38,331 nucleotides of DNA from a virus. Each line of letters opens with the position of its first letter. The first letter of the stretch is position 1. Below are positions 14,167-23,010 of the stretch, piece after piece. The notes beneath the pieces were generated by a model. The model ran no database searches. It had not been told where the DNA came from and was given only the letters and a program-made list of their open reading frames with translations. The position numbers were made by a program, and so were the translations under genes. Location: IMG/VR virus record IMGVR_UViG_3300031673_000209, positions 1-38,331 of that record; one strand, written 5' to 3'.

Positions 14167-14199
14167 GGTGGAGGCGCGCTGAAATTGGTGGTGGAGGCG
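14167..14199. repeat. short direct repeat of the tmRNA 3' end
   Basis: GGTGGAGGCG occurs at 14167-14176 and 14190-14199; the second copy is the tmRNA acceptor end. Integrases often use tmRNA 3' ends as attachment sites, and insertion duplicates them, but 10 bases is short and no integrase is seen here. Confidence 0.35.
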
Positions 14200-14568
14200 T
14201 CCGGGAATGATCCGGAGTCCGCGCCTACTAGCAGCTCTCTTCATTCACGCTTATAGTCGCTGAACCTCAACGACACGGTTTGCTCAGCCTCTCACCCGAG
14301 CATGGGTTCTACCCCTGAAGAAAATACTCTAACCAGGCTATACGTGGGAGAACGAGTCCATCACCTAATTATAGTTCCGTGTAGTGACGCCTTTTAAATT
14401 ACTCGGAATCCTCACTTAAAAGACGGCTGAGAGCAATTACGCTGCAACAGCAAGATCTGCATTATCGTTGGCAGTTAGTACGTTTGGGAAATTGATCAAA
14501 GCACTCACCCAAAATGTGCTCAAGCGCAGATTGCTACCTGTCCGACACGTCGAAGCCACTTCGCCCCC
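14189..14568 (-). ncRNA. ssrA: tmRNA (transfer-messenger RNA)
   Basis: About 380 bases. The 5' end GGGGGCG (14562-14568) pairs with CGCCTCC before A and encoded CCA (14189-14191). 'GTGGCTTCGACG' follows the 5' end, as in bacterial tmRNAs. Inside, a reading frame ends NVLTANDNADLAVAA-TAA (14437-14484), a tag with the hydrophobic -AVAA ending recognised by host proteases. The T-loop (ATCATTC) is divergent. tmRNA frees ribosomes stalled on messages without stop codons; several genes here could produce such messages. One-piece, non-permuted form. Confidence 0.9.
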
Positions 14569-22051: not shown

Positions 22052-22126
22052 TGGCGCTCCCAGAGGGAATCGGACCCCCAACCGTGCCTTTTAGAAAAGC
22101 CCGCTCTGCCATTGAGCTATGGGAAC
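22052..22126 (-). tRNA. amber-suppressor tRNA (CTA anticodon)
   Basis: Acceptor GTTCCCA/TGGGAGC, D-stem GCTC/GAGC, T-arm GGGGG/TCCCT region with TCCGATT, G73, CCA encoded. The anticodon arm GGCTT-TTCTAAA-AGGCA places C-T-A at 34-36 after T33, with A37 and A38, so it should read UAG. Charging identity cannot be told from sequence by eye. It lies just downstream of a gene with an early in-frame TAG. Confidence 0.85.
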
Positions 22127-22151
22127 TACGGACGAGGCTCTCAGCGAAGGA

Positions 22152-22478
22152 TTAACTAAGAGCTAATTTCAATCTACTACACAGCTTTTTAGATCTACCT
22201 CCTGGCTCAAATGTTACTGCCGTAATTTCATTATCGAAATCTGGCTCGCGGAATATAGAGAACTTGATTCCTTTCATTTCCGCCAAAATCAGAAGCTCTT
22301 GCAACTGTTTTTCATCTTCTATTTCTAGCAAGACCAGATAGTTTGATGTTTCAAACCACGATCTATCTATTTCTGGATTTTCAAATCCGAACTGTTTTAG
22401 AGCATGGCAACACTGAGCTGCTTTTGCTCCAGGTGATAAATCTGTTCTGGTTACAATATATAGTTTATTCTACGTCAT
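22152..22478 (-). CDS. peptidyl-tRNA hydrolase, PTH2 type, with in-frame amber at codon 3
   Basis: From codon 4 the frame reads 'NKLYIVTRTDLSPGAKAAQC' then 'CHALKQFG', the PTH2 signature (R-T-D-L...G-K-x-A-A-Q-x-x-H-A), later 'YLVLLEIEDEKQLQELLILA' and 'KFSIFREPDFDNEITAVTFEPGG', ~105 residues as usual for the family. PTH2 frees tRNA from peptidyl-tRNA lost by ribosomes. The only ATG in frame is at 22478: ATG ACG TAG AAT AAA, with AGGA 8 bases upstream. Full-length product therefore needs UAG read-through, or a non-AUG start after the TAG. Alternatively, it is a recent pseudogene. Confidence 0.8.
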
Positions 22479-22479
22479 A

Positions 22480-23010
22480 TTAGTCCTCATCTTCATAGTC
22501 TAACTCTTCAGCCATTTGTTTTCTTGCTTCGGCATCTTCTCTAAATTTGTGAGACACCTTCTCAATTATTTCCTCGGGTATGTTGGCTTCTCTGAGCGTG
22601 CCTTTCCAGCCGGAATACGGTTCATCACCAGAAATCCAGTGCTTTTCTCCTACCTGAAAACTGGGGGGATCGCTGTAGACCTTTCCACACTCAGTTTCTA
22701 AATACGGCCAAACCTCCAGCGGCGAATCATTACAACAGCCGCAATTATGAGAGCAATCGTATTTATCAGTTTTGTCATTTACTGAAGCAGAACAGAGACG
22801 AACAGTTTTCCAGCGGTTAACATTACGTTTTAAATCAGGATACTCAGCGTACAGTTTTTTCAGATTGTCTAGATCTGTCTGTTTGTCGCTAATTTCCTTC
22901 TCTGTGGTTTCGATTACACCAGGAATACTCCAGAGATATTCTTGTTTAGCACGCCTTTCTTTATCGGCTTGGTTCTTTTCTTCTGGCGTCATGTCGTTAT
23001 AGTTTTTCAT
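22480..23010 (-). CDS. hypothetical protein, 176 aa
   Basis: An N-terminal coiled coil ('EKEISDKQTDLDNLKKLYAE') precedes a Cys/His cluster ('CSHNCGCCNDSPLEVW', ~85-100) that probably binds metal, then an acidic helical end. No family recognised. Starts with an ATGA overlap; its stop is one base before the Pth2 ATG. Confidence 0.72.
   Translation of the reverse strand: MKNYNDMTPEEKNQADKERRAKQEYLWSIPGVIETTEKEISDKQTDLDNLKKLYAEYPDLKRNVNRWKTVRLCSASVNDKTDKYDCSHNCGCCNDSPLEVWPYLETECGKVYSDPPSFQVGEKHWISGDEPYSGWKGTLREANIPEEIIEKVSHKFREDAEARKQMAEELDYEDED

Follow-up and report, generated by a model that had tools for sequence, protein, structure and literature searches.

Stop codons at the head of phage pth2 genes and matching suppressor tRNAs: a putative natural translational switch

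Introduction

Why should a phage gene for a peptidyl-tRNA hydrolase open with a start codon that is followed two codons later by an in-frame stop, next to a tRNA gene whose anticodon matches that stop? The question is raised by the window, the whole stretch of DNA analysed here, which comprises 38,331 bases (41% G+C) of an IMG/VR virus record and is classed as a fragment. The window carries 18 tRNA genes and also encodes a tmRNA and EF-Tu, a pair that fits a phage running its own ribosome rescue and tRNA delivery. The features of the locus (the early in-frame stop is called the gate) are the following.

22152 to 22478, minus strand: pth2, amber-gated, ATG ACG TAG followed by the PTH2 core and TAA (Pfam, AlphaFold, Foldseek)
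22476 to 22478, minus strand: start codon ATG before the amber (Shine-Dalgarno spacing; no later start before the core)
22470 to 22472, minus strand: in-frame amber at codon 3, the gate (sequence and conservation in phage PTH2 clusters)
22484 to 22488, minus strand: Shine-Dalgarno sequence GAGGA within the 3' end of the upstream gene (read from sequence)
22480 to 23010, minus strand: upstream ORF of unknown function, without Pfam match
22052 to 22126, minus strand: suppressor tRNA, anticodon CTA, encoded CCA, discriminator G73 (ARAGORN; Rfam RF00005, 48.8 bits)
14189 to 14568: tmRNA with the tag ANDNADLAVAA
35404 to 36573: EF-Tu

The pth2 gene and the tRNA of the window

Analysis of the minus-strand sequence and a match of the product to the Pfam PTH2 family (PF01981, E 9.4e-10, 39.2 bits against a gathering score of 23) confirmed the amber at codon 3 of pth2, which a previous sequence-only reading had pointed out; the frame amounts to 108 aa when the TAG is taken as a residue. 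Following the TAG it continues with AAT AAA CTA TAT ATT GTA ACC AGA ACA GAT and closes with TAA at 22154-22152. Inspection of the codons between the window TAG and the conserved core with its first strand revealed no ATG, GTG or TTG, in agreement with the claim of that reading that the only ATG of the frame precedes the TAG. The GAGG at 22488-22485 is followed by 6 nt and then by the pth2 ATG. Since the TAA of the upstream ORF ends one base ahead of this ATG, both genes are probably cotranscribed. RNA folding of the start region revealed no special structure.

The AlphaFold model of the window Pth2, obtained with an alignment of homologues, showed a mean pLDDT of 95.9. Its first strand comprises residues 6-11, three residues past the amber, so a downstream start would delete this strand. 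Foldseek indicated that the model resembles the solved PTH2 structures 1q7s, 2zv3, 3erj and 1xty, with an E value of 8e-9 to 1q7s and TM scores up to 0.80 to 3erj and 1xty. By profile and fold the window gene belongs to the PTH2 family, while hydrolase activity on peptidyl-tRNA is inferred. Family (PF01981) and fold are common to the phage type, human Bit1 (1Q7S) and archaeal Pth2, whereas the phage type is divergent. Where the canonical motif is G-K-x-A-A-Q with a catalytic-loop lysine, the window protein reads GAKAAQ, and in most gated homologues PGxQ stands in a loop that is some two residues shorter. Canonical Pth2 paralogues, found in three phages that also encode a gated Pth2, are ungated.

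The tRNA gene lies downstream of pth2 at a distance of 25 bases, not 26 as first counted. It scored 48.8 bits against the Rfam tRNA model (gathering score 29), which is normal given that the window's tRNAs for Val and Lys reached 48.5 and 46.6 bits, and the tRNA fold together with the CTA anticodon qualifies it as an amber suppressor tRNA, as the sequence-only reading had it; charging and suppression activity are inferred. The anticodon stem is weak, with 4 bp and a G27-A43 mismatch, and stop-codon reading has been linked to 4-bp anticodon stems (PMC13092985). The D-arm is of the standard bacterial type. A pyrrolysine system, which would pair a pylT-type tRNA with PylRS, was considered and ranked low, within the limits of a record that is a 38 kb fragment.

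Distribution of the gate in phage pth2 loci

Phage pth2 loci were collected by tblastn in annotated phages and by alignment searches of IMG/VR, and about 100 phage PTH2 loci were grouped into 55 clusters at 65% identity. For each locus the codons ahead of the core were read and ARAGORN was run. Small alignments were used to search IMG/VR, a seven-sequence alignment being too diverse; a search of IMG/VR with a single protein and a scan of GTDB gave no matches.

The gate, defined as a start codon, zero to four codons and then TAG (codon 2-6), was found in 32 of the 55 clusters. It occupies codon 2 in four clusters, codon 3 in 16, codon 4 in five, codon 5 in five and codon 6 in two. Four calls (L029, L108, L017 and L050) were removed by hand, because a regular ATG followed the stop or the frame differed, and L036 was entered as gated by hand. 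Because the search seeds were mostly gated genes, 32 of 55 is no unbiased frequency, and at 65% identity not all clusters represent independent origins of the gate. Cultured phages are among the carriers, and in their records pth2 is either missing or annotated to start after the TAG:

Serratia phage BF: ATG ACG CAC TAG
Cronobacter phage GAP32 and Pectobacterium phage CBB: ATG GCA CAA TAG
Salmonella phage Arash: ATG CTG TAG
Acinetobacter phage ME3: ATG ACT TAG
Mycobacterium phage Myrna: GTG TAG
Mycobacterium phage HyRo: ATG TAG

A start codon with at most six codons, a TAG and at least 80 open codons, without an early second start, occurred in 39 of 94 pth2 loci, whereas all six frames of 1.06 Mb gave 95 occurrences outside these loci. 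The sequence-only reading had proposed a comparison of the start in relatives, and these proved to carry TAG at that point, or TAA together with a TTA tRNA.

Two further arrangements were observed. In L017 (5976-6030) and L018 (5966-6030) an ATG preceded by a Shine-Dalgarno sequence opens a frame of 6-8 codons ending in CAG TCC CAT TGA, and the PTH2 core resumes in the +1 frame in both; a programmed +1 frameshift gate in place of a readthrough gate is possible there. In L075, L107, L002 and L025 an in-frame TAG lies about 30 codons into the PTH2 core with a CTA tRNA nearby, and L075 and L107 have no gate at the start.

Linkage and covariation of stop codon and tRNA

A CTA tRNA was located within about 6 kb of pth2 in 27 of 32 gated clusters; of the 23 clusters without a gate, 9 had one (Fisher p 0.0012). 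In the gated L118 the CTA tRNA is about 8 kb off, and for four gated clusters (L042/43, L046/47, L058 and L059) none was found in the DNA examined; the L059 phage has an odd tRNA whose 8-nt loop contains TCTA. The suppressor tRNA may be encoded upstream or downstream of pth2, at distances between about 100 bases and 4 kb, and the tRNA sequences are highly dissimilar; where readable, the discriminator may be any of A, G, T and C. Such variation in place and sequence points to an association that was probably formed or re-formed many times, and the dissimilarity of the tRNAs suggests that the identity of the inserted amino acid does not matter.

The nearest relative of the window Pth2 (69% identity) is encoded by L052, a 458 kb phage whose pth2 opens with ATG GCT TAA and whose tRNA has the anticodon TTA. 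The first nucleotides of this tRNA overlap the end of pth2, so that the terminator TAG of the gene is T8-A9-G10 of the tRNA. As the sole gate other than TAG, L052 is the strongest evidence: judged from the two sequences, stop and anticodon switched together. The gate codon never doubles as the terminator of its own gene: none of 36 cluster-terminators of TAG-gated genes is TAG, versus 14% in neighbouring ORFs, and the TAA-gated gene terminates in TAG.

A suppressor tRNA was also found near pth2 in 13 of the 23 ungated clusters. The gate thus accounts for only part of what connects pth2 with these tRNAs, and these clusters support a putative partnership of pth2 and stop-reading tRNAs that extends beyond the gate. 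Near the ungated pth2 of L009, L011, L012, L014 and L084, which include Lak phages, the tRNAs have the anticodon TTA (ochre/amber-reading). Immediately upstream of other ungated pth2 genes (L053, 5710-5794; L088, 2857-2939; L027, 5892-5968) there are tRNA-like genes in which the hairpin of the anticodon arm is capped by GGAG, GCAA or CGAAA and which have no ordinary anticodon loop.

Conservation of the gate and its specificity to pth2

Within clusters, both members of a pair shared the TAG in 52 of 52 cases; agreement was 29% for the codon before it and 63% for the codon after it. Only gated loci were paired; this value is therefore conditional on the gate, and losses would sit in the ungated set. 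In 31 of 32 clusters the gate stop is followed by a purine, whereas 62% would be expected (p 4e-6). A 3' purine tilts an amber toward suppression rather than termination.

The whole-genome pairs GAP32/BF and HyRo/Myrna were scanned for start-anchored amber-gated ORFs common to both members. The start anchor and counts by codon position were added to the scan, as shadow frames dominated the output of a raw search for conserved in-frame TAG codons. In both pairs pth2 was the only convincing conserved amber-gated gene. A GAP32 candidate at 43.4 kb was rejected, its annotated gene starting past the TAG.

A proposed switch

These data lead us to propose a stop-gated translational AND-gate, in which Pth2 would be made only when the suppressor tRNA of the phage is both present and charged; we consider this very probable. 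The message of pth2 would be translated from the ATG and the ribosome would reach the UAG within one to five codons. Without suppressor, release factor would terminate there and no Pth2 would be made; once the CUA tRNA has been transcribed, matured and aminoacylated, it would read the UAG and full Pth2 would result. The gate, its invariance, the match to a linked anticodon, the fitting start signals and the specificity to pth2 in two genome pairs are observed, all of them in sequence, and readthrough in infected cells is inferred from them. Counting against the proposal are the four gated clusters without a located CTA tRNA, the 23 ungated clusters, the start codons that follow the TAG in mycobacteriophages and the weak anticodon stem of the window tRNA.

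Conservation, covariation and linkage over 32 clusters lend strong support to the inference of the sequence-only reading, by which Pth2 synthesis follows the availability of suppressor tRNA; suppression itself remains an inference. None of the conditions which that reading had named as refuting it was fulfilled. It spoke of a feedback switch. The dependence on the suppressor tRNA stands, but as Pth2 has not been shown to act back on the tRNA, feed-forward is the better name for the circuit.

Alternative explanations

Minigene regulation. The short ATG-TAG frame, unsuppressed, might itself be the regulator by releasing short peptidyl-tRNA and sequestering tRNA, a state which Pth2 from occasional readthrough would relieve. 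Minigenes with such an early stop are known to provoke drop-off, according to works cited in PMC10192219, and the gate lies at codon 2 or 3 in 20 of the 32 clusters, but in the other 12 it lies at codon 4-6, the preceding codon is not conserved, and synthesis of Pth2 would still require readthrough. The two-codon minigene suggested from the window alone thus proved not to be specific, the stop being codon 2, 3, 4, 5 or 6 depending on the phage. We retain such a regulator as an improbable explanation.

Initiation after the stop. Translation may instead begin beyond the TAG, using a non-standard or alternative start codon, with ATG-TAG as a short leader or a part of the ribosome-binding region. 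In the mycobacteriophages a GTG or ATG does follow the TAG and annotators begin there, with GGAGG or GAAGG 7 nt ahead of it in the C1/C2 loci, and ATT, a rare start codon, occurs after the TAG in several loci. Against this, 27 of the 32 gated clusters have at least one member without ATG, GTG or TTG between the TAG and the core; the codon following the TAG in several loci is AAT, GGC, AGA, GAC, AAC, CTG or GTA. A good Shine-Dalgarno sequence precedes the pre-TAG ATG where the hosts use such sequences; Bacteroidota-type loci lack it, and there the start-site evidence is weaker. Ten actinophage-type loci carry TTGAC(A/G) and TAnnnT, with the -10 box 12-13 bases before the pre-TAG start codon. 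This is the spacing that leaderless transcripts should show, and from this promoter anatomy we infer that actinophage pth2 mRNAs would be leaderless from that codon; the transcript would then begin only after the apparent Shine-Dalgarno sequence that precedes the GTG of the annotators. L046 (GTG TAG GTA) shows the same promoter layout and L056 (ATG ACA TTT GCG TAG ATC) a similar one, and neither has a start codon after the TAG. A downstream start would also leave unexplained the identity of the TAG, the anticodon match and the switch to TAA beside a TTA tRNA. Since starts after the TAG are few, the Shine-Dalgarno sequence fits the upstream ATG and the actinophage promoters fit leaderless messages, we regard downstream initiation as unlikely, with only a small chance of being correct.

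Recoding. The phages might read TAG as Gln throughout (code 15), which would make codon 3 a plain glutamine. CTA tRNAs are a hallmark of code-15 phages, and a second in-frame TAG lies inside the pth2 of L002 and L025. Yet among the 27 ORFs of the window that do not overlap and reach 120 aa, 8 terminate in TAA, 6 in TAG and 13 in TGA, and EF-Tu terminates with TAG, which upholds the earlier statement that TAG is still a stop in the window; code 15, where TAG is sense genome-wide and unused as a stop, does not apply to it. TAG also serves as a stop in actinophage and enterobacterial loci, and L003/L019 contain no in-frame TAG across 2,402 neighbouring codons. The TAG recurs at one place, where CAA or CAG almost never stands in its stead, and the variation of the suppressor tRNAs in acceptor stems and discriminators (A, G, T or C) implies no single amino acid. 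Recoding therefore appears very improbable.

Error or chance. A lone TAG in one metagenomic contig could be a sequencing error, a pseudogene or chance, but the gate recurs in dozens of independent assemblies and isolates, and the substitutions downstream of it are of the coding type (7, 4 and 29 by codon position, GAP32 vs BF), which leaves this explanation a negligible chance.

Possible purpose of the gate

A stop-reading tRNA would also make ribosomes overrun genuine stops, and the drop-off that follows would yield peptidyl-tRNA, on which Pth2 acts. As suppression would in this way yield its substrate, Pth2 output may be tied to the suppressor dose, and a Pth2 dose that tracks suppressor activity would be self-adjusting. 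Damage control against by-products of suppression is accordingly a candidate purpose, which we advance tentatively, neither confident of it nor ready to discard it, and as a weaker inference than readthrough. The gate may instead provide timing or licensing, the tRNA being mainly a timer for Pth2, which is possible but rather doubtful.

Across host groups, the loci probably represent a natural two-part switch, in which a nonsense-opened pth2 is paired with a matching suppressor tRNA, one gene is licensed by a tRNA rather than by a protein or small molecule, stop and anticodon can change together, and the orphan suppressor tRNAs of non-recoded phages would serve largely this end.

Comparison with known systems

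Release factor 2 (prfB) is autoregulated through an in-frame UGA near its start by +1 frameshifting, in a negative feedback. In prfB as in pth2, an early in-frame stop ties the synthesis of a translation factor to the termination balance, whereas the stop of pth2 is apparently read by a dedicated tRNA and not passed by a +1 frameshift.

In recoded phages (code 15, Lak, crAss-like; PMC9523058, PMC10879173, PMC13037316) a phage CUA tRNA likewise reads UAG, and the timing of expression has been proposed as the purpose. In contrast, the genome analysed here is not recoded and keeps UAG as a stop; one gene has one early stop and a matching adjacent tRNA, and the gate spans phages of many host groups. 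The synthetic suppressor-tRNA 'leak dampener' (PMC7969014) similarly combines a tRNA and a nonsense codon into a coherent feed-forward AND-gate; it is engineered, while the phage switch appears to be natural and conserved and to control a peptidyl-tRNA hydrolase.

Suppressor tRNAs or phage PTH2 have been treated separately in PMC10879173, which describes theta ribozymes beside suppressor tRNAs, and in jumbo-phage surveys (PMC13037316, PMC7824862). The genes targeted by the two CUA tRNAs of XacN1 were not identifiable (PMC5852040), and possible suppressor targets in phage Summit were reportedly not identified (PMC9022506). No account of the stop in pth2 was found in the full-text literature searched, and within it the switch looks undescribed; most subscription papers and preprints were outside the scope of the search, so this absence is not proof.

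The suppressor tRNAs of standard-code phages are an open puzzle, for which pth2 offers a specific and conserved target in cultured phages. The switch would be a natural case in which a dedicated suppressor tRNA gates translation, and it would link stop-codon suppression with peptidyl-tRNA recycling in a testable manner. It would also correct the start of the gene in many phages; most of the approximately 190 mycobacteriophage records with a HyRo-type start region are probably among them. The CTA tRNAs themselves are labelled diversely in GenBank: as tRNA-Ser in Myrna (L005, 2466-2537), as tRNA-Arg in Phabba (L006, 2465-2535) and as OTHER in Cane17 (L013, 3601-3673), while that of HyRo (L007, 3611-3684) is unannotated.
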